In this document: piece after piece, positions 6,830-38,699 of the stretch
How the letters are laid out: every line of letters begins with the position of its first letter
Position numbering within the stretch: the stretch's first letter is position 1
Origin: Clostridiales bacterium
GTDB taxonomy: Bacteria; Bacillota; Clostridia; Lachnospirales; Lachnospiraceae
Assembly (NCBI GenBank): GCA_021201535.1
Contig: JAJQEU010000064.1
Coordinates: forward strand, 1-50,903
Reading direction: 5' to 3'
Length of the DNA stretch: 50,903 nt
Notes under the pieces: generated by a model
Seen by the model: only the letters and a program-made list of their open reading frames with translations
What the model was told of the DNA's origin: nothing
Database searches by the model: none
Made by a program: the position numbers and the translations under genes

Positions 6830-6853
6830 GAAAATAGTAACTTATTCAGGACA

Positions 6854-6878
6854 GTACTTCGCACCTGCTGCGAAGTAC
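6854..6878. repeat. Perfect short inverted repeat
   Basis: GTACTTCGCA and TGCGAAGTAC form a 10-bp stem with loop CCTGC. There is no T-run, so it is not a plain terminator. It resembles the small palindrome modules near the MITE copies. Confidence 0.6.
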
Positions 6879-6921
6879 GTCTGATAGCGTAGATTACACA
6901 GAAAATATTTTAATGGTTCTG

Positions 6922-6963
6922 AAACCCGAAACCATCCGGAGTGACGGATGGTTTCGGGTTTTT
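6922..6963. terminator. Bidirectional terminator between udp and the XRE gene
   Basis: A 17-bp perfect stem, AAACCCGAAACCATCCG paired with its complement at 6945-6961, has a 6-nt loop and T-runs on both strands. It serves both convergent genes. Confidence 0.9.
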
Positions 6964-6968
6964 CAGAC

Positions 6969-7316
6969 TTATTCTTCTTCCGTTTTCTGAACCGCCTGGA
7001 TGTAGTGTGACACGATCTGTGTCAGATGATCGAGATAATCCGGCGGGCAGGTGCGAATCAGCGCGGTTACCGGCGTATACCTGTCATCCGCGGATTGCGG
7101 TCCGAACAGAATATAATCGGCAGGAATCGAGAGCGCAGCAGCGATATTGCAGAGTGTATGAAGCGACATGTTTTTGGAACCAAGTTCAATGTCATAACAG
7201 AAGCGAGGCGTGATGTCCGCAAACTCCGCCAGTTTTTCCCGAGAATATCCTTTTAAAGTTCGTTGCTCTTTGATTCGCTGTCCCATCAGGACTGCATCGG
7301 CAATTTTTGCACTCAT
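6969..7316 (-). CDS. XRE-family transcriptional regulator
   Basis: A 115-aa DNA-binding protein with a Cro/C1-type helix-turn-helix at about residues 12-68 (IKEQRTLKGYSREKLAEFAD, then the recognition helix before YDIELGSKNMS). The short C-terminal part looks helical and may dimerise. The start follows GGGAGGTAATTTGGT. It is divergent from the Tad block, and the gap between them holds a 17-bp perfect palindrome at 7392-7408 and the Tad promoter, so control of the Tad operon, of itself, or both is a reasonable inference. No ligand domain is visible. Confidence 0.85.
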   Translation of the reverse strand: MSAKIADAVLMGQRIKEQRTLKGYSREKLAEFADITPRFCYDIELGSKNMSLHTLCNIAAALSIPADYILFGPQSADDRYTPVTALIRTCPPDYLDHLTQIVSHYIQAVQKTEEE

Positions 7317-7391
7317 ACCAAATTACCTCCCTGGCTGATCCGCAGAAAAAGATTTTCGTGGTTCATTTTTTCTAATAATTCTATTGCAAAC

Positions 7392-7408
7392 TGCATAGTT
7401 ACTATGCA
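7392..7408. promoter_or_regulatory. 17-bp palindromic operator candidate
   Basis: TGCATAGT-T-ACTATGCA is a perfect palindrome lying between the divergent XRE gene and the Tad-block promoter, 51 bp before the -35 box. XRE dimers bind such sites; the pairing is inferred from position. Confidence 0.55.
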
Positions 7409-7458
7409 TTTTACGGACGGTTTTTATCACGAAATATGAACTGACAGGGGATAAAATA

Positions 7459-7487
7459 TTGACGAATAGTTCATGTTGTCGTATAAT
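7459..7487 (+). promoter_or_regulatory. Promoter of the Tad / kinase block
   Basis: TTGACG (7459-7464) and a perfect TATAAT (7482-7487) are separated by 17 nt. Transcription would start near 7494, about 25 nt before tadZ. Confidence 0.8.
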
Positions 7488-7518
7488 ATAACAATAAATA
7501 AGATGAGGAACTGGACAA

Positions 7519-8580
7519 ATGAAGATAAGAGTTGCGATATTGGATAATGATGTTAATTATTTGAGTCGGATATCAGATGTTTTTCATACAAAATATGCAG
7601 AAAGAATAGAATTATATTCTTTCACGGATTGCGAGACGGCGGTAGAGGCATTGGCGAGCACCAGAATTCATGTTTTTCTGGCAAGTGATCTGTTTGACGT
7701 GGAATGCGCGAGACTTCCGGAAAAATGTGGCTTTGCATATTTTGTGGAGTCTGGCGGTATTGAGATGATAAGAGGCCGGAAAGCGGTATGCAAATTCCAG
7801 AAAGCGGATGTTATTTATCAACAGATTCTCAGTATCTATTCGGACTGCTCGGAGGGTATTTCGGGAACTGGGTTTCGTGAGACAGATGGAAAAAGGATTG
7901 CTTTTTTGTCGCCAGTTGGCGGGAGTGGAAGTTCCACCATGGCAGCTGCCTGTGCGCTTCATTTTGCCAGACAGGGAAAAAAGGTGTTTTATTTGAATCT
8001 GGAAAAATTCGGGTCCGCCGATCTTTTTTTTTCCGGGGACGGAAGTTTTAATTTGAGCGACGTTATTTTTGCCTTGAAAAATAAAAAGGCAAATATGGAG
8101 ACACGATTGGAAAGTTGCATGAAGTTAGATGAGGGTGGCGTTGCTTTTTTCTCTCATCCGAAGGTGGCATTAGACGCGATGGAACTGAGAGCAGATGAGA
8201 TTCGACGTTTGCTGATCGGTCTGCAGACTGTTGACGATTATGAGTATATCGTGTTGGATATGGATTTTGCTATCGATGCGGATATGCTGGAGCTGTATTC
8301 CATGATGCAGTCAATTGTGATGGTGGGTGATGGGTCAGAAATCTCTAACTGGAAGATCAGCCGGGCGTACCAGACATTTTTTGTTTTGGAGCAGGTGATG
8401 GATACTATACTGACGGATCATATAGTGACAATATATAACCGCTTTAATAGTACATATTGTAAATTGATTTCTGGAGATGGTCCCCAAAATATCGGCGGTG
8501 CGCCTCGGTACAGAAATGTATCGGTACGACAGATGGTCAGGCAGCTGTCCAGCATGGAAATGTTTGATCATATTGTATAG
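7519..8580 (+). CDS. tadZ: TadZ/CpaE-like pilus localisation ATPase
   Basis: A 353-aa protein that heads the Tad operon and by family places the pilus machine in the cell. Residues 1-120 resemble a response-regulator receiver (acidic DND at 9-11, possible acceptor D57). From about 126 it is a MinD/ParA-type domain. The P-loop at 131-141 reads SPVGGSGSSTM, so the lysine of the usual GKT is replaced by Ser and nucleotide hydrolysis is doubtful; TadZ proteins are often atypical here. A later LDMDFAID near 247 fits the Walker B position. The start follows GAGGAACTGGACA. cpaF begins 44 nt downstream. Confidence 0.8.
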   Translation: MKIRVAILDNDVNYLSRISDVFHTKYAERIELYSFTDCETAVEALASTRIHVFLASDLFDVECARLPEKCGFAYFVESGGIEMIRGRKAVCKFQKADVIYQQILSIYSDCSEGISGTGFRETDGKRIAFLSPVGGSGSSTMAAACALHFARQGKKVFYLNLEKFGSADLFFSGDGSFNLSDVIFALKNKKANMETRLESCMKLDEGGVAFFSHPKVALDAMELRADEIRRLLIGLQTVDDYEYIVLDMDFAIDADMLELYSMMQSIVMVGDGSEISNWKISRAYQTFFVLEQVMDTILTDHIVTIYNRFNSTYCKLISGDGPQNIGGAPRYRNVSVRQMVRQLSSMEMFDHIV

Positions 8581-29513: not shown

Positions 29514-29572
29514 TATAAAGAGATTTCGGGCGGATATATAACGATATACAACGGCAGGGAGGGCATGGATCA

Positions 29573-30340
29573 ATGGATTTTAAGATTGCGGCACATACGG
29601 ATGCCGGTATAAGGAAAAGGATCAATCAGGACTCGGTTCTGGTAAAGGTAGCAGGGACAGACCGGGGCAGCGTATGCCTGGCTTCGATTTGCGACGGTAT
29701 GGGCGGACTTGAGAGAGGCGAACTGGCCAGCGCGACTGCAGTCCGGCAGATATCGGACTGGTTTGAACATGAGTTCCCGGATCTGCTGTATCGGGGACTC
29801 AGTATGGAGATCCTGGCAGAACGGTGGACGGAAATGATCTACAGCATCAACAGGCGCATCAGTACATACGGCCATATGGCGCATATGGATCTCGGGACGA
29901 CGATGGTCATCCTGCTGCTGGCGGAGCGTACATATTATATAGCGAGTGTAGGCGATTCCCGGGTTTATCTGCTGAGGGAGGACCTGAAGCAGCTGACGAA
30001 GGATCAGACTTTTATTCAGAGGGAGATAGATGAGGGACGCATGACCCGGGAGGAGGCCCGCAGAGATCCCAGACGGAATGTTCTGCTGCAGTGTGTGGGC
30101 GCTTCTGATGAGATCGTGCCGGATTTTTCTTTCGGAACCATCGTGCCGGGCAGTATGTTTCTTGTCTGCAGTGATGGGTTCCGTCATGCGATTTCAAAAA
30201 AGGAGATGTATGCTTACCTCTGCCCGCGGCATCTGTTTCAGGAGAAGATGATGCAGGAGGGAATCGAGAAGCTGACAGAGCTGGATAAATACCGCAGGGA
30301 ATCAGACAATATTTCATCCGTTCTGATTCGGTGCGATTAG
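29573..30340 (+). CDS. PP2C-type Ser/Thr phosphatase, copy 2
   Basis: A 255-aa metal-dependent phosphatase with the same plan as copy 1: INQD (D20), CDGMGG (D41-G45), LGTT, SVGDSRVYLL, LTKDQT, VCSDGF and SDNISSVLI. The key acidic residues are in place. The two proteins differ clearly in sequence despite matching motif positions, so the duplication is old or the genes came separately. It starts the second module; the kinase begins 58 nt downstream. Confidence 0.9.
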   Translation: MDFKIAAHTDAGIRKRINQDSVLVKVAGTDRGSVCLASICDGMGGLERGELASATAVRQISDWFEHEFPDLLYRGLSMEILAERWTEMIYSINRRISTYGHMAHMDLGTTMVILLLAERTYYIASVGDSRVYLLREDLKQLTKDQTFIQREIDEGRMTREEARRDPRRNVLLQCVGASDEIVPDFSFGTIVPGSMFLVCSDGFRHAISKKEMYAYLCPRHLFQEKMMQEGIEKLTELDKYRRESDNISSVLIRCD

Positions 30341-30398
30341 ATTTTTACAAACGAATGCCGGTAAAATTTTTATTTTGATTGGTGGGGGTCAGGAGACT

Positions 30399-32117
30399 AT
30401 GCTGGAGATAGGTTCCCTGGTGGACGGCAAATACAGGGTATTAAATAAATGCGGGGAGGGCGGCATGAGCGTGGTCTATATGGCGATCAACGAGCGTGCC
30501 AACAAGACCTGGGCAATCAAGGAGGTCCGGAAGGACGGCGTGAAGGACTTTGATCTGGTAAAGCAGGGGTTGATTGTTGAGACAAACCTGTTGAAGAGAC
30601 TGAGTCATCCGAATCTTCCCAGTATCGTGGATGTGATCGACAGTGACGACAGTTTTCTGATTGTCATGGATTTTATTGAGGGAAGGACGCTGAAAGATAT
30701 GCTGGCTGAGTTCGGTCCGCAGCATCAGGAGGATGTGATCGACTGGGCAAAGCAGCTGTGCGGTGTGATGGGCTATCTTCATTCCCGAAAACCGCCGATT
30801 ATTTATCGGGATATGAAGCCGTCGAATGTCATGCTGAAGCCGGATGGGACGATCGTGCTCTTTGATTTCGGAGCTGCCCGGGAATACAAGCTTTCGAGTC
30901 CGGGAGATACGACCTGTCTGGGAACCAGAGGATATGCCGCGCCGGAACAGTACGGCGGACATGGGCAGACGGATGCCAGAACGGATATTTTCTGCCTGGG
31001 AGCCACGATGTATCATCTTGTCACCGGACATAATCCGGGCAGTCCCCCCTATCAGATGTATCCGATTCGTCAGTGGAACCAGAATCTGTCTGCCGGACTG
31101 GAATCTATCATAACAAAGTGTACGCAGCAGAATCCGGACGACCGGTACGCGAGCTGCGCCGGGCTTTTATACGACCTGGAGCATTTCGGAGAAGCAGATA
31201 TCGCATATCGGAAAAAACAGATCAGAAAGCTTCGCAAATTCATCGTTTCGGCTGCGGCGGCCGCAGTTTTCTGTGCGGCATCTCTTTCATTTTATTATCT
31301 GGAGAACTCTGAGAAAAAGAGCACGTATGATTATTATATCAGCAGTGCGGAGAAAGCGTCCGGCGATGAGCGGATCGCGTATTATCGAAACGCCATCAGT
31401 CTGGAGCCTGAGAATGAGGAGGCGTGGAATGCACTGCTGAAAGAATTCTCGGAGGATGATACCTTTACTTCGGATGAGAGCAGTATGCTGCAGAGTATTC
31501 TGATCGCGACGAACGGCGGCCAGACGAACGAGACTTCTTTTAAAAATAAAAACCGGGAAGGGTATGATAAATTTTGTTTTGAAGTCGGAATTTTATATTA
31601 TTACAAGCTGGAGACCGGAAATGGCAGGATGCAGGCAAAGCATTACTTCGGCGTAGCAATGGCATCGGAATATCTGAGCGAGGATCAGATCGTACGGGCG
31701 GAATGTCTGTTCCGGATTTCTGAATACTATTCAATCATCGGCAGGGTGGACAATACCGGCGATTCTTCGGTATCCTACAGGGATTACTGGGATGATCTGG
31801 TGGAGCTGACCGCGGGTAATCTGGTGGAGATGGATAATCCCAACACAGCCATTATTATGTATCGTGAAATGACATCTCAGATCATATCCCGCGCCGATGA
31901 TTTCAAAAACAGCGGCGTTACGCAGAGTGAGATGCAAGAGCAGCTGGAGAATATCCGGGAGCATCTGGAGACTGATTTTAACTCTCTGACAGAGAGTCAG
32001 GAGAGCGGGATACAGGACAGCCTGAAGGCATTGAATGAGTCTCTTTCTCAGGCGGAGCAGGTAATCAACAGTAAATTTGGCAGAAGATCGGAGGAACAGC
32101 AGGAGGAGGAAGTTTGA
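30399..32117 (+). CDS. Transmembrane Ser/Thr kinase
   Basis: A 572-aa Hanks-type kinase with a complete active site: Gly loop CGEGGMSVVYMA (18-29), Lys K41, helix-C Glu E61, catalytic YRDMKPSN (Y136-N143, Asp D138), DFG (156-158) and APEQ (181-184). The basic IRKLRK precedes a membrane helix at about 281-300, then an extracellular helical part (310-560) with TPR-like pairs, including AYYRNAISLEPENEEAW. It lacks PASTA repeats, so it is not a PrkC copy. ATG 30399 is taken for its AGGAG. It overlaps the next ORF by 4 nt. Confidence 0.9.
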   Translation: MLEIGSLVDGKYRVLNKCGEGGMSVVYMAINERANKTWAIKEVRKDGVKDFDLVKQGLIVETNLLKRLSHPNLPSIVDVIDSDDSFLIVMDFIEGRTLKDMLAEFGPQHQEDVIDWAKQLCGVMGYLHSRKPPIIYRDMKPSNVMLKPDGTIVLFDFGAAREYKLSSPGDTTCLGTRGYAAPEQYGGHGQTDARTDIFCLGATMYHLVTGHNPGSPPYQMYPIRQWNQNLSAGLESIITKCTQQNPDDRYASCAGLLYDLEHFGEADIAYRKKQIRKLRKFIVSAAAAAVFCAASLSFYYLENSEKKSTYDYYISSAEKASGDERIAYYRNAISLEPENEEAWNALLKEFSEDDTFTSDESSMLQSILIATNGGQTNETSFKNKNREGYDKFCFEVGILYYYKLETGNGRMQAKHYFGVAMASEYLSEDQIVRAECLFRISEYYSIIGRVDNTGDSSVSYRDYWDDLVELTAGNLVEMDNPNTAIIMYREMTSQIISRADDFKNSGVTQSEMQEQLENIREHLETDFNSLTESQESGIQDSLKALNESLSQAEQVINSKFGRRSEEQQEEEV

Positions 32118-32518
32118 AAAATATTGAATTATATGAACAGTACCATTATCTGTTTCTTGGCTGTCTCATCGCCTGCATGGCTCTGGCGGCGATCACGGTG
32201 ATTCTGTTCTTTGTTCTGGATATCAGGGGTGTGGCCGGATATCTCAGCGGCAGGACGGCAAGGCGTCAGATTCAGAAGATTGAGGAAGAGAATGCAGCCG
32301 GCGGAGAGAGCACGTCGCAGCTGATCCGTGAGACAGAACAGATCCATACCACAGGCGATATGACGGAATTCCTGCAGGACAGAAACGGAGTGGCGGGAGA
32401 ATCTTCACCCGTGAGAGAAGAGAAAACGTTTTACGGATATGCAGTGAGCAGGAAGACAACCGGCGCCTTTATGATTGAGCGGGAGATCGTCATGATACAT
32501 TCGGAGGAAATTATTTAG
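32114..32518 (+). CDS. Single-pass membrane protein of the second module
   Basis: A 134-aa protein with a TTG start (32114) preceded by AGGAGGAGGAAG and overlapping the kinase stop. A membrane helix lies at about residues 14-37; the rest is cytosolic, with RRQIQKIEEE and Thr-rich stretches (QLIRETEQIHTTGDMTEFL) that could be kinase targets. Its place parallels the 52-aa protein of the first module, though it is longer and comes after the kinase. Function unknown. Confidence 0.75.
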   Translation: MKNIELYEQYHYLFLGCLIACMALAAITVILFFVLDIRGVAGYLSGRTARRQIQKIEEENAAGGESTSQLIRETEQIHTTGDMTEFLQDRNGVAGESSPVREEKTFYGYAVSRKTTGAFMIEREIVMIHSEEII

Positions 32519-32584
32519 GCGCTTAGAAACGATTTTTTGCGCAAAATGGCAAAATTCTGTTCCGGTTCATCCGGGTCAGGAATG
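32516..32584 (-). repeat. 70-bp dispersed repeat, copy 2
   Basis: Inverted relative to copy 1 at 4375-4443 and nearly identical. It begins over the stop codon of the membrane protein gene and ends 53 nt before the start of the giant surface protein gene. Confidence 0.85.
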
Positions 32585-32636
32585 GTACAGAAACAGCAGA
32601 TTATGGACAATAGTGGACAATAAGCGGAGGAAAGCG

Positions 32637-35600
32637 ATGAAAAAGAATCTGTCAAAACAGGGAACGAAGATACTGGCGGTTATTCTGGCTCTGGTGGTGG
32701 CGTCCGGTGTTTTTTCCGATACGGCACTGTTCGGAAGCACCAGTGTGTTTGCGGAGGAGGAGAAAGCCGCACCGGAGCTGATTTCTTATACGATCACGGG
32801 AACCACTCTGTATCAGGTGGACGGTGTGGATGTATATCAGAATGTGGATGGCGATGACGTTACGCTGACCTGGATCATCCATGCCGGCGATGATTCCTGG
32901 GATGCGTCCCGCATGACACTGACGATCCGCAACAGAACAACCGGAAATCATGCCGTAGAAATCTGCGGGGATGATACGTCCATCGAGTGGGATCAGGACG
33001 GTGATCTGCACACAGCGGCGTATACGTTTGACGGGGATACGGATCCGGCGAATTATGACGTTCAGATTTTCTATGTGGATGATGAGCAGAACGCGATGGT
33101 CAGTGCGGATGAGGCTCTGGCTGTGGCGGACGGAACGTACACCAGTGAAGAGTTTATTCTGGATCACAGCGCGCCGACCTTTGAGATCACATACAGTGAG
33201 GCCGTCCGGCTGGTTTCCGACGCGACAGGCATGCCGGCGGACGACATCACATCGGATATTGAAGGAGCGGACAGCGTTGTGCCGACGACCGGCTACGCAG
33301 CATACTATGACGGTTCTGTTGATGTGACCGTAAAGATTTACGATGATTATATAGCGGTGGAAGAGGATGATACGGGCACCGTTATCGATCTTCCTCAGTT
33401 TACTCTGCTGGTGAACGGCGAGTGTGAGGATCTGCCCGCGGTCGTGTGGGAGTATGATGAGACAACCGCCTGCTGCACGGGAGAGTTTACGATTCCGGAT
33501 GAAGGTGATTATGTACTGACCGTCGGCTATGTGGACGCGGCCGGAAATATCGTGAAGGTCGGAGAGATCGTACAGGGATCCGCAGTGGATCTGGAAACGG
33601 CTGACTTCGATGGAACTTACATGAGCACGCAGCTCATTGTGGATAAGACTGCTCCCGTGGTGGATCTGGCTTACGGAACATACAGTCCGGAGAACGGGTT
33701 TGAGGAGACGGATCCCTCTGCGTCCTATGATGGCGACGATTGCAGCTATTTTAATGAGCCGGGCGGTATCTGGCTGAGGGTTTGTGTTCAGGATGATCAT
33801 ATCCGTTGCGCGGAGGTTCTGGATTACCTGATGGCGTCGCTGACGGCGACAGACCTCTATGGCGATGATATCACGGCGGATACGGCTGCTTACCTGTATC
33901 TGCAGGAGATGATGGAACAGAATGCCGGCGAAGCGGTGCAGGGAACACTGACGCTGTATATTCCGTTCACGGATGATGCGTATTACGATCTTTCCTCCGG
34001 CACGGTGACCGACCTGGCGCGGAATGTCTCCGAACCGGCTGCGGAACAGCATATCTGTGCAGACGATACCATGCCGGAGGATGATATCCTGGCGGAATAT
34101 GCCAGCGATATATACCAGGGGTTTACAGACGAATTCTGCGGTCTCGTTCTGTATCGGGAATATTTCTTCGGCAGACAGTACATGGATGTTGTGCTGTATC
34201 TGCAGGATAATCTGTCCGGCGTGCAGACGATTTCTTACCTGTATGACGGCGGCACGGCACAGACCGCAGAACGTGACGGCGCTCTGACGGATGATACAGG
34301 AGACGGTGTTCTCCGTGCGAAGTTTACGATATCTCTGCCTGTGGCCGCATACAGTGACGGAGACGACATTCTGATCAACGGGCATCTGGTGCTCACTGAG
34401 ATCACGGACCGCGCCGGCAACGTGCGGACCGTAAACGGCGCAAGTGCGGAATACACGGGTGATACGGAACTGATCATCGACAATGTGAATCCGGATGTTC
34501 AGGTGATTTACCCGGCTTCGGATGACGACGGCACGTATGAGAACTGTTATTTTTACCATCAGGACGAGGCGCAGTCGGATGAGGTGGTGACGCTGGTATA
34601 TACGGAGCGCTATTTCATGGAACATGTCGTGACGGATGCGGACGGCTATGTCGTTTATACAGACGGAGAACCGTCTCCGATCTATCCGACCATTACTGTG
34701 GAGGTGAACGGCAGCGCCGTGGAGGTCTCTTCTGCTGTGAGCGATACGCAGCCCTATGTTGTGTGGGGAGATTACAACACATCTGATGATACGATCGAGG
34801 CGCAGCTGCATCTGCCGTACAGTATCACAGAAAACGGCGCTGAGATCGAATACGTGATTGAGACGGAATATGCGGATGGATCCGGCAATGTGCTGGTGAG
34901 AAGCGCGGATGATTCCTTCTCGACGATTTCGGACGACGGCCTGTACCGGAGCGGAACCCTTGTGCTGGATACTCTGGCGCCGGAGCTTCTCTCTCATACC
35001 ATCTCGGGAACGACCGACTGTGAGTCGGACGGCGTGCCTGTCTACCGGAATGTGGACGGCGGCGACGTCACTTTGAACTGGGTGATCTGTGATAATGACA
35101 AGTACTGGAATCCGTCTGATCTGACAGTCACGATCCGGAATGTGACGACCGGTGAGATATCGGTACAGATTAGCGGAAACGATGAGTCGATCGAGTGGGA
35201 CGGGGACGGAAAGGCCGGCGAGTGCCTGCACACCGCGGCATACACTTTTGACGGGGACGAGAATCCGGCAAATTATTTTGTGGAAATATATTATGCCGAC
35301 CGCGCAGGGAATGTGATGATCAGCGGAAATGAAGAGCTGACCGTGGAAAGCGGGATATATCAGAGCGGAGAGTTTATCCTGGATCATGCAGCGCCGGTTT
35401 TTAATATCCGCTATACAAAAGCGTATCGGCTGGTGAAGGATTCAGATACGGCGCAGAGCAATGATAAAAAAAATGCGGCTCCGACAACAGGTTACACCGC
35501 GTACTACAGCTCAGATATTGAGGTGACTATCGAAATCACCGAAGATTATGCACTGGTACAGAATACGACCGGGGCGGATGGCACTCAGAGTATGATCGGT

Positions 35601-38600
35601 CTGACTGATTACACGCTGCAGGTCGGCGGAATACTGACAGAGTCCTATACGCCGGAGTGCATATGGTCTTATGACGAGGATACGAAAACCTGTACGGTGC
35701 GGTTTACTCTCACGGAAGAGGACGAGTATAACATTTCTGTCTCCTATACAGATGCGGCGGGCAATGTCATGACAAAAGGCGGCGAGGTGCAGGGATCTTC
35801 CGTGAGTCTGGACAGCACAGATCTGAACGGCAGCTATGTCAGCACGGCGCTGGTGATCGACAGGACAGCTCCTCAGATTACCGGGACATACGGCGGTACG
35901 GTGATCGATGAGACGGCCGGGCGATATTACTTTAATCGCAGTACGGCGCTGACGCTGACAGTGACGGATGCCAATATCCGGGATCAGGAATTAAAGGATG
36001 CAATGAGTGCAGACAGGGCGTATGCGATAGAAAATAGCGGGGCGAATCTGTTCGGGAGTACGTCGGCATATGCGTCGCTGAACGCTTTGGACGGAAAAAC
36101 GATACACTCCGGGCAGGACAGGGCGGAGTATACGCTCAGCCTGAGCGCACAGGCCAACTACGATCTGCTGATCACGGGATACGAGGATCTGGCGGGAAAT
36201 ACGGCGGTCATCACAGATTACAATCCTTACGTGTGCGTGGATACTGCCGGCCCGACGGATGTGACCTTTACCTATTCGGTGAACTCCGCGGGAACATGGG
36301 AAGCGATCAATTACGCGAAGCTCGGTTATGTATTTGCAAATTCAGAACTGACGGTTCAGGCAGCTGTGAAGGACGCGACCGCCGGACTGAAGCAGATGAC
36401 CTTCTATGTGACGGATGAGAACGGAACGGTGACGGTCATTGAGAGAAGCACGGAGCCGGCCGCGAGCGCATCGGAGACGATCATACTGCCTGTAAGCGGA
36501 GATGATTTCAGGGGTTCGGTAGAGGTGGTTGTCACTGACTGGTCCGGAAATACAGGCAGTAAAACAGAAGGCCAGATTGTCCAGAGCGCGGCCAGACATG
36601 CGAGCGCGGGCCGCGCGGCCATCACGACGCTCACCAGTCCGAGCCGTACAGTGAACGGTGTGGATTATTATAACACGGATGTGACATTTAATCTGACAAT
36701 GAAGGAGACCTATGCAGGTCTGCGAAGCTGCAGCTACACGGCGGGAAGTCTGATTTCAGAGACAATTGATTACAGCGCGCAGGCCGGATATGATCTGACT
36801 CAGAGCAAAAGCTGTGAGATCACGGATACCTTCTCCGCGAACCTGACGCTCCTGGCCTCCGCGAACAATCAGAATGATGTGAGCGTACAGGCTTCTTACG
36901 TTGATAATACGGGGTATACCGGTTCTGTGAGCCAGACTTATCATATCGATATCACAAAGCCGATCATCGAAGTGACCTATGACAACAACCGTCCGGCCAA
37001 CGGGACATACTACAGCGATGCGCGGACGGCAACCGTGGTGATCACGGAGCGGAATTTCGATGCGGACGACGTTGTATTTACCATCACGAGCAGCGACGGC
37101 GCGACGCCGGCGATCAGCGGATGGACGACGACCGGGAGCGGCGACGCGACAAAGCACACGGCTACCGTGACATTCAGTGCCGACGGTGATTACACTTTTA
37201 CGGTGTCGTTTCAGGATCTGGCCGGAAATAAGGCAGATGACAGCGCGACAGATCGGTTTACGATCGACAGAACCGTACCGACCTGTAGCGTTACCTATGA
37301 CAATAACAGCCCGCAGAATGAGTATTACTATGATGCGGACCGTGTGGCGACCATTGACATTCTGGAGCATAATTTTGATGCTTCTGACGTAACCATAACA
37401 GTGAGCAGAGACGGATCGGACATCACGCCGGAGATTTCCGGATGGGTGAGAAACGGAGATCATCATATCGCTGCCGTGAGCTTTCATGCGGACGGGGAAT
37501 ATACCTTTACCATCTCCGGCGCGGATCTTGCGGCAAATCCGATGGATGACTATACGATGGATTATTTTGTGATAGATACGGAGAACCCGGAGGTCGAGAT
37601 TTATAATATTGAGAATTATTCAGCGAACAACGGCGTCGTACAGCCGGGTGTCAGATGCAGCGATATAAACTGTGATACCGATACTGTCACGGTGGAAATC
37701 GTCGGTTATTACAACGGCGTGATCCGTCCGGATGGCAGGGAGACCATCACGTCGGACGGCATGGAGATTCTGATGGATGATTTTGAGTACGTGCGGGAAA
37801 TGGACGACATGTATACGATGACCGCCACGGTGTGTGATCTGGCCGGAAACCGTTCGGAGGCTGCCGTGACATTCTCTGTCAACCGTTTTGGTTCTGTCTA
37901 TACGTTTGACAGCGCGACAAACGCCCTGGTCGGTGAAAACGGCAGCTATTATACGAATGAAGAGCCGACCATCGTGGTGATCGAGACAAACGTGGATATT
38001 TTGAAATCCTGTGAGATTGCGAGGAATCTGAACGGCGATCTGAGCACGCTTGAGGAGGATGAGGATTACACAGTGAAGGTAAGCGGCGACGATGTGAGCT
38101 GGAAACAGTATACCTACACGCTGGATTCGTCTGACTTTGAGACGGAGGGCGAGTATATCCTGACCTTCATGTCGCAGGACCGCGCGGCAAATTATAACAC
38201 AAATGAGAAGCAGATCGGGTTTGTGGTGGACAAGACGGCTCCGACGGTTCTGGTTTCCGGTATCACAGACGGGGAACAGCTGAGAGAGGAGACGCATGAT
38301 ATTGTGATCAGCGCTGCGGATAATGTCCGTCTGGACAGCGTGACGGTGATCAACGACGGCGAATCCACAGAGTATGATGCCGCGGACGTGACAGACGGCT
38401 CGTTTACCCACACTCTGAGCAGTAAGGATGAGCGGCAGACGCTGCAGGTCATTGCTACAGATGCGGCGGGAAATAAGAGTACAGTTATGAGCATCGTGGA
38501 TGAGTCCGGAAATGTGGTGGATGAGATGGAGGAGCTTCATTTTCTGCTGACGACAAACCTGCGAAGCCGGTTCGTGTCTGATATACTGCTGCCGGTTGGA

Positions 38601-38699
38601 GTCATGGTGATGATTGCGGCAGTTGTGATTCTCCTGTTCCGGTGGTTCCTCTTCGGAAGAAAGCGGAGAAAGAAGGGTAAGGATATGGCTTCCGTATAG
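32637..38699 (+). CDS. Giant Ig-like surface protein anchored at the membrane
   Basis: A 2020-aa secreted protein. Signal peptide about 1-39 (ending TSVFA). A long block about 45-330 (LISYTITGTTLYQVDG, HTAAYTFDG, EEFILDHSAP) is repeated about 780-1075 (LSHTISGTT, HTAAYTFDG, GEFILDHAAP), so it was duplicated. Later come Ig-like repeats with ISGW and ADGEYTFTISGADLA-like strands (about 1445-1640). The end is a membrane helix followed by RKRRKKGKDMASV, with no sorting motif. ATG 32637 follows GCGGAGG. It is the surface partner in the second module, as the 1261-aa protein is in the first; adhesion or ligand sensing is inferred. Confidence 0.85.
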   Translation: MKKNLSKQGTKILAVILALVVASGVFSDTALFGSTSVFAEEEKAAPELISYTITGTTLYQVDGVDVYQNVDGDDVTLTWIIHAGDDSWDASRMTLTIRNRTTGNHAVEICGDDTSIEWDQDGDLHTAAYTFDGDTDPANYDVQIFYVDDEQNAMVSADEALAVADGTYTSEEFILDHSAPTFEITYSEAVRLVSDATGMPADDITSDIEGADSVVPTTGYAAYYDGSVDVTVKIYDDYIAVEEDDTGTVIDLPQFTLLVNGECEDLPAVVWEYDETTACCTGEFTIPDEGDYVLTVGYVDAAGNIVKVGEIVQGSAVDLETADFDGTYMSTQLIVDKTAPVVDLAYGTYSPENGFEETDPSASYDGDDCSYFNEPGGIWLRVCVQDDHIRCAEVLDYLMASLTATDLYGDDITADTAAYLYLQEMMEQNAGEAVQGTLTLYIPFTDDAYYDLSSGTVTDLARNVSEPAAEQHICADDTMPEDDILAEYASDIYQGFTDEFCGLVLYREYFFGRQYMDVVLYLQDNLSGVQTISYLYDGGTAQTAERDGALTDDTGDGVLRAKFTISLPVAAYSDGDDILINGHLVLTEITDRAGNVRTVNGASAEYTGDTELIIDNVNPDVQVIYPASDDDGTYENCYFYHQDEAQSDEVVTLVYTERYFMEHVVTDADGYVVYTDGEPSPIYPTITVEVNGSAVEVSSAVSDTQPYVVWGDYNTSDDTIEAQLHLPYSITENGAEIEYVIETEYADGSGNVLVRSADDSFSTISDDGLYRSGTLVLDTLAPELLSHTISGTTDCESDGVPVYRNVDGGDVTLNWVICDNDKYWNPSDLTVTIRNVTTGEISVQISGNDESIEWDGDGKAGECLHTAAYTFDGDENPANYFVEIYYADRAGNVMISGNEELTVESGIYQSGEFILDHAAPVFNIRYTKAYRLVKDSDTAQSNDKKNAAPTTGYTAYYSSDIEVTIEITEDYALVQNTTGADGTQSMIGLTDYTLQVGGILTESYTPECIWSYDEDTKTCTVRFTLTEEDEYNISVSYTDAAGNVMTKGGEVQGSSVSLDSTDLNGSYVSTALVIDRTAPQITGTYGGTVIDETAGRYYFNRSTALTLTVTDANIRDQELKDAMSADRAYAIENSGANLFGSTSAYASLNALDGKTIHSGQDRAEYTLSLSAQANYDLLITGYEDLAGNTAVITDYNPYVCVDTAGPTDVTFTYSVNSAGTWEAINYAKLGYVFANSELTVQAAVKDATAGLKQMTFYVTDENGTVTVIERSTEPAASASETIILPVSGDDFRGSVEVVVTDWSGNTGSKTEGQIVQSAARHASAGRAAITTLTSPSRTVNGVDYYNTDVTFNLTMKETYAGLRSCSYTAGSLISETIDYSAQAGYDLTQSKSCEITDTFSANLTLLASANNQNDVSVQASYVDNTGYTGSVSQTYHIDITKPIIEVTYDNNRPANGTYYSDARTATVVITERNFDADDVVFTITSSDGATPAISGWTTTGSGDATKHTATVTFSADGDYTFTVSFQDLAGNKADDSATDRFTIDRTVPTCSVTYDNNSPQNEYYYDADRVATIDILEHNFDASDVTITVSRDGSDITPEISGWVRNGDHHIAAVSFHADGEYTFTISGADLAANPMDDYTMDYFVIDTENPEVEIYNIENYSANNGVVQPGVRCSDINCDTDTVTVEIVGYYNGVIRPDGRETITSDGMEILMDDFEYVREMDDMYTMTATVCDLAGNRSEAAVTFSVNRFGSVYTFDSATNALVGENGSYYTNEEPTIVVIETNVDILKSCEIARNLNGDLSTLEEDEDYTVKVSGDDVSWKQYTYTLDSSDFETEGEYILTFMSQDRAANYNTNEKQIGFVVDKTAPTVLVSGITDGEQLREETHDIVISAADNVRLDSVTVINDGESTEYDAADVTDGSFTHTLSSKDERQTLQVIATDAAGNKSTVMSIVDESGNVVDEMEELHFLLTTNLRSRFVSDILLPVGVMVMIAAVVILLFRWFLFGRKRRKKGKDMASV

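Follow-up and report, generated by a model that had tools for sequence, protein, structure and literature searches.

The window (the whole 50,903 nt stretch of Clostridiales DNA that was analysed) contains a small XRE-family regulator gene and, 202 bases away on the opposite strand, tadZ. The gap between them and its surroundings hold the following features.

6838..7488, no strand: block 98% identical to the sister genome G010; the similarity ends at the tadZ -10 box, beyond which G010 has DUF6382-FHA and EssC-like genes
6969..7316, - strand: 115-aa XRE protein with one HTH_3 domain (15-69) and a C-terminal helical tail (domain scan, predicted structure)
7392..7408, no strand: perfect 17-bp palindrome, covering the last base of the putative XRE -10 box and the position at which XRE transcription is expected to start
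7408..7436, - strand: putative XRE promoter, TATTTC (7436-7431), 17 nt, TAAAAT (7413-7408)
7438..7472, no strand: dyad GAACT-N25-AGTTC with central GGGATAAAA (TTTTATCCC on the - strand), the proposed XRE operator (spacing conservation, held-out matrix)
7459..7487, + strand: divergent tadZ promoter, TTGACG (7459-7464), 17-nt spacer, TATAAT (7482-7487)
7519..8580, + strand: TadZ-like protein, first gene of the Tad operon (domain scan)

The XRE protein belongs to the XRE/HTH_3 regulators, scoring 35.6 bits against PF01381 (curated cut-off 23). Its predicted monomer has a five-helix HTH domain modelled with high confidence, followed by a less certain helical tail (block pLDDT 61-76). On the other side of the gene, between it and the convergent nucleoside phosphorylase gene, 6922-6961 forms a perfect 17-nt inverted repeat with a 6-nt loop that looks like a bidirectional terminator; the consensus scan listed no terminator there.

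The 17-bp palindrome

The original prediction had placed a perfect 17-bp palindrome between the XRE gene and the Tad side, and the window scan recovers TGCATAGTTACTATGCA at exactly 7392-7408 with no mismatches, the arms reaching 12 bases if one mismatch is allowed (11/12 complementary, 92%). Its rarity is moderate. Of 5000 dinucleotide shuffles of the 202-base gap, 37 contain an odd-centred palindrome with arms of at least 8 bases and 70 contain one of odd or even centre; the whole window has four odd palindromes of this kind, where 60 shuffles average 0.63. This implies that the palindrome is uncommon for the gap, though not unique in the window. TGCATAGTTACTATGCA has no other match in the window at up to three mismatches (23 of 100 shuffles give at least one at the same looseness), and a second dyad, the spaced inverted repeat 7433-7442 / 7468-7477, is also present between XRE and tadZ.

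Orthologues of the XRE gene were collected through a GTDB scan that gave 12 loci, which became 12 distinct orthologues once the window was added and the duplicate L045, identical upstream to L044, was removed. With a threshold of E 0.001, some XRE-like match turns up in 129 of the 195 genomes, and the footprint was limited to strong orthologues; the weaker L013-L018 were inspected and not used in it, and L019-L034 lie outside the comparison. L040, which has no dyad, was left out of the shuffle, information, matrix, promoter and pair comparisons.

The palindrome is found upstream of just two of these 12 genes, that of the window and L035 of G010, whose XRE protein is 97% identical to the window's. 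As the two sequences are 98% identical over 6838-7488, their common palindrome carries little weight. Nine other orthologues retain 1-4 of the 8 palindrome pairs at the aligned position, or 3-6 of 8 if the centre slides by up to 6 bases either way; L037 and L039 have the left arm CATAG in common with the window but not the right arm. L040, the twelfth, offers no dyad to align on, and its upstream region contains no such palindrome. The stretch covering 11 of the 17 palindrome bases has a mean information content of 0.31 bits in an 11-row alignment anchored on GAAC/GTTC. Hence the motif is not conserved beside homologous loci, the finding that the original prediction had named as telling against an operator.

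Genomes were also scanned for the motif, as had been suggested. The 15-base core, at up to two mismatches, has 80 forward matches summed across 20 genomes of the genus, compared with 204 for the reversed control; in the window's own genome alone, the 17-base pattern at up to three mismatches occurs in four places versus two for the reversed control. On these counts a genus-wide regulon motif was rejected or left as weak. That the palindrome is instead the operator of another regulator, repressing XRE transcription from its start site, appears improbable. The slight excess in the own genome is consistent with it, since it includes the symmetric near-copy TGTATAGTTACTATACA at G000:C61:302-318, which UbiD-like and transporter genes adjoin (by eye). 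So is the core GTATAGTNACTATAC, present in at least 6 of the 20 genus genomes: in G011 and G006 it lies between LysR-regulator-like and transporter genes (by eye), and in G000 and G010 UbiD-like and transporter genes adjoin it. Against this, the 15-base pattern is rarer than its control across the genus, no regulator is tied to the palindrome at this locus, and the site is not retained in 10 of the 12 orthologues. The palindrome is probably a chance or lineage-specific sequence, real yet unimportant, and in itself ordinary sequence.

A TGTATAGTNACTATACA palindrome was seen at L067:2999 (G011:C66) and L069:3015 (G006:C5), between genes resembling LysR regulators and solute transporters (by eye), and is possibly the site of the neighbouring LysR-like regulator in those two genomes. 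Assignment of the window palindrome to a LysR- or GntR-type site was rejected as resting on likeness only.

The conserved dyad and the putative divergent promoters

The second dyad lies about 30 bases from the palindrome, between the XRE and tadZ promoters, with arms GAACT at 7438-7442 and AGTTC at 7468-7472. Read in the orientation of the XRE gene, the pattern GAACT....TTTTATCCC....AGTTCATATTT recurs upstream of the orthologues, and the distance from GAAC to GTTC is exactly 31 nt in 10 of the 12, at protein identities of 44-97%; the exceptions are L041, which has GAAT for GAAC, and L040, which has no such block. When the 11 regions chosen for having the dyad were subjected to 2000 mononucleotide shuffles, at most two regions had a common spacing. 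Information averages 1.05 bits across the 45-nt block, against 0.26-0.51 in its flanks, in a profile whose anchoring on GAAC/GTTC favours the block and whose rows include two close pairs (window/L035 and L037/L039). A matrix built on nine orthologues, neither the window nor L035 among them, gives the window dyad a score of 58.8; the next match in the window, at 11.8, is the same dyad read in reverse, and no second dyad scores above 5.

The dyad is embedded in promoter-like sequence. The tadZ promoter hexamers match the consensus at 11 of 12 positions and form the best of three promoter-like sites found in the region by the consensus scan, compared with 1.8 in shuffles, and the AGTTC arm sits within their -35/-10 spacer. 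In 9 of 11 orthologues a divergent -35/-10 pair with a 17-nt spacer is found at the corresponding position, its hexamers matching at only 4/6 and 5/6 in L044; in the two exceptions, L043 and L046, the arm spacing is retained although the divergent promoter is unrecognisable. The other arm of the dyad abuts the -35 region of the putative XRE promoter. As the consensus scan gave no match for this promoter, it is proposed from conservation: a TAAAAT-like -10 box recurs at one fixed offset in 8 of the 11 orthologues, while the TATTTC -35 is weak. The last base of that -10 box is also the first of the palindrome, and the XRE transcription start, if 6-8 bases past TAAAAT, would fall near the palindrome centre. 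Only one arm would then be transcribed, and for this reason a hairpin in the 5' end of the mRNA was rejected as a role for the palindrome.

It is likely that the XRE protein binds the dyad at 7438-7472 and represses both itself and the neighbouring surface module, and that the palindrome is not its operator. The position, spacing and conservation of the dyad, and its overlap with promoter-like hexamers, can be read directly from the DNA; we infer the identity of the binding protein, its repressive effect and its oligomeric state. An XRE dimer, or dimer of dimers, on the dyad would block both promoters, the outcome being autorepression together with repression of the divergent surface module, here Tad. 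Two features argue against an XRE operator, namely the asymmetric core TTTTATCCC, which a simple dimer leaves unexplained, and the 27 nt between GAAC and GTTC, which is long for one HTH dimer. The proposal that the XRE protein controls itself or the pilus genes from this gap is nonetheless supported in kind, through a dyad that is conserved in 10 of 12 orthologues and lies over the promoters, but not through the palindrome originally assigned as operator.

The conserved half-site, AGTTCAT / ATGAACT, allows the palindrome to be judged as an XRE site in its own right, perhaps an extra one beside the dyad. It is perfect and lies at the XRE start region, and its best half-site score, 6.9, ranks fourth of 382 positions in the gap, such that it resembles a weak half-site. 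By contrast, the dyad arms score 16.2 and 15.0, the palindrome core is TAAC rather than GAAC, and 10 of the 12 orthologues lack the palindrome. It is therefore very improbable that the palindrome is the XRE operator.

If the dyad is the operator, Tad pili and type VII secretion in the mostly uncultured Lachnospiraceae gain a repressor and an operator that can be tested as a pair, along with a sequence tag for the surface module that each species puts under the switch. A literature search, covering titles and abstracts and few subscription journals, found no paper on XRE control of Tad or type VII genes in Lachnospiraceae.

Distribution of the XRE gene and the dyad

Within the 20 genus genomes, seven have an XRE orthologue (E 1e-20), seven have the dyad and six have both (Fisher p = 0.0012), an association that is not independent evidence because most of the pairs share one locus and helped define the pattern. 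Dyads in the genus that played no part in defining it are those of G018 and a second site in G006. The latter, at G006:C15:42107-42141 (L090:10107-10141) in a type VII cluster, lies about 12 kb from the first dyad in the same cluster, just ahead of a DUF6382-FHA gene. Downstream of it, the DUF6382-FHA gene (domain scan) is followed by PP2C-like, kinase-like and surface-protein genes (by eye).

Across 397 genomes of the family, the dyad pattern was detected in three (G000, G234 and G218) and its reversed control in none; G000 and G234 (L044) had served to write the pattern, whereas G218 had not. G046 (L046), also among the 397, has the gene and the spacing but is too divergent for the dyad pattern. 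Three genomes do not fit neatly with an XRE operator. G018, which is 91% complete, has the dyad, and the profile finds no XRE protein in it at E 0.001; in G218 the dyad lies at the end of a contig and the XRE proteins are only distant ones, the best at E 1.6e-12; and G017 (L040) has the XRE gene without the dyad.

These cases bear on a further explanation, in which the XRE gene is a bystander: the block would then owe its conservation to its role as a divergent promoter alone, or to a protein other than XRE that binds it. The conserved columns do include the -35 and -10 hexamers, and in G018 and G218 no clear XRE orthologue accompanies the block. Nevertheless, the columns GAACT, TTTTATCCC and AGTTCAT fall mostly outside the hexamers of both promoters, the arm spacing persists in L043 and L046, where no promoter can be recognised, and six of the seven dyad-bearing genus genomes carry the XRE gene. 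A bystander XRE gene accordingly seems unlikely, and binding of the dyad by the XRE protein is the preferred reading.

Surface genes behind the putative switch and comparison with known regulators

The genes on the divergent side differ between orthologues. The module in the window is Tad, with TadZ and a T2SSE-family ATPase. L035 has a DUF6382-FHA protein and an EssC-type FtsK/SpoIIIE-FHA protein (Pfam), as does L036, assigned via an 81% identical EssC; in G006, three WXG100 proteins are encoded downstream of the DUF6382-FHA/EssC-type genes. In L037, Pfam identifies a protein kinase and a giant protein that contains an Ig-like domain; L039 has the same by its near-identical reading. L038 has a DUF6382 match just below the curated cut-off, then PP2C-like and kinase-like genes (by eye), and L041 and L042 have Big_2 surface proteins. 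A bacterial sugar transferase gene lies 777 bp distant in L043, while L044 has a NusG-like gene and L040 no close divergent gene, the nearest listed being 882 bp distant. The gene in L046, at 319 bp, looks purC-like by eye and does not count among the surface genes. Overall, a surface, secretion or polysaccharide gene lies behind the putative switch in 9 of the 12 orthologues, by assignments made partly by eye.

The window and its sister genome differ in this respect. Searches of the own genome recovered a single TadZ of this kind and, for EssC, only an FtsK-like partial match; G010 has EssC, and its TadZ match is only distant (24%). The nucleoside phosphorylase gene that is the left neighbour of XRE in the window lies near the end of another contig in G010 (98%). 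The ends of contigs G010:C200 and G010:C187 carry matching inverted-repeat sequence, whereas the window is continuous there (junction 6839/6840), which suggests that a small mobile element probably separates the XRE and phosphorylase genes in G010. Further along the window, 29519-38696 contains PP2C-like, kinase-like and 2067-codon surface-protein frames (by eye), related to the module behind the XRE promoter in L037/L039. Genes of the window between about 30.4 and 38 kb resemble the L037 kinase/surface module, with matches of 76% over 814 bp and 69% over 1838 bp.

Tentatively, the XRE gene, dyad operator and divergent promoter could form a fixed control head for interchangeable surface machines, though this is somewhat doubtful. 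Such a head would stand beside a nucleoside phosphorylase gene in several species, its cargo being Tad pili in the window, an operon for type VII secretion in both G010 and G006, and modules of the kinase/adhesin kind in G001, G007 and G015. Between the window and G010 the head is 98% identical and the cargo switches at the -10 box; the Tad genes of the window and the type VII genes of G006 precede a kinase/surface-protein module, related to the one that directly follows the head elsewhere, as if inserted between it and the head. Were this true, one small repressor would gate interchangeable surface machinery.

Controller proteins of restriction-modification systems and phage-type XRE repressors are small autoregulating XRE proteins. 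The XRE protein of the window is like both, in that controllers such as C.BclI and C.AhdI and phage-type repressors are the best Foldseek matches of its model. The solved controller chains differ in being shorter and without the C-terminal tail, and no restriction genes were noticed near the window XRE gene when its neighbourhood was read by eye. SinR chain 3qq6 is among the best PDB sequence matches (E 5.6e-9), with C.BclI, C.AhdI and 3ivp scoring similarly. The fold search aligned SinR 1b0n_A over 115 columns only at an rmsd of 11.2, and the NCBIfam SlrR model scores 16.3 bits against a cut-off of 250. Convincing similarity to SinR is confined to the HTH domain.

SinR of Bacillus subtilis is described as a repressor of biofilm genes whose motifs vary in number and orientation (PMC3163267). 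Like SinR, the XRE protein is a small member of the XRE/HTH_3 group, of similar length and with a predicted helical C-terminal part, and it would act through half-sites with a GTTC core on surface or matrix genes. The SinR operator motif GTTCTYT, as given there, is not the conserved half-site, which here is ATGAACT(A/G), and GTTCTTT occurs only in L046 among the upstream regions listed; the arms here stand in the order GAAC...GTTC at a fixed 31-nt spacing, unlike the varied SinR motifs of that account. In outline, the XRE protein may work like SinR, and its matches equally include restriction controllers and other XRE repressors.
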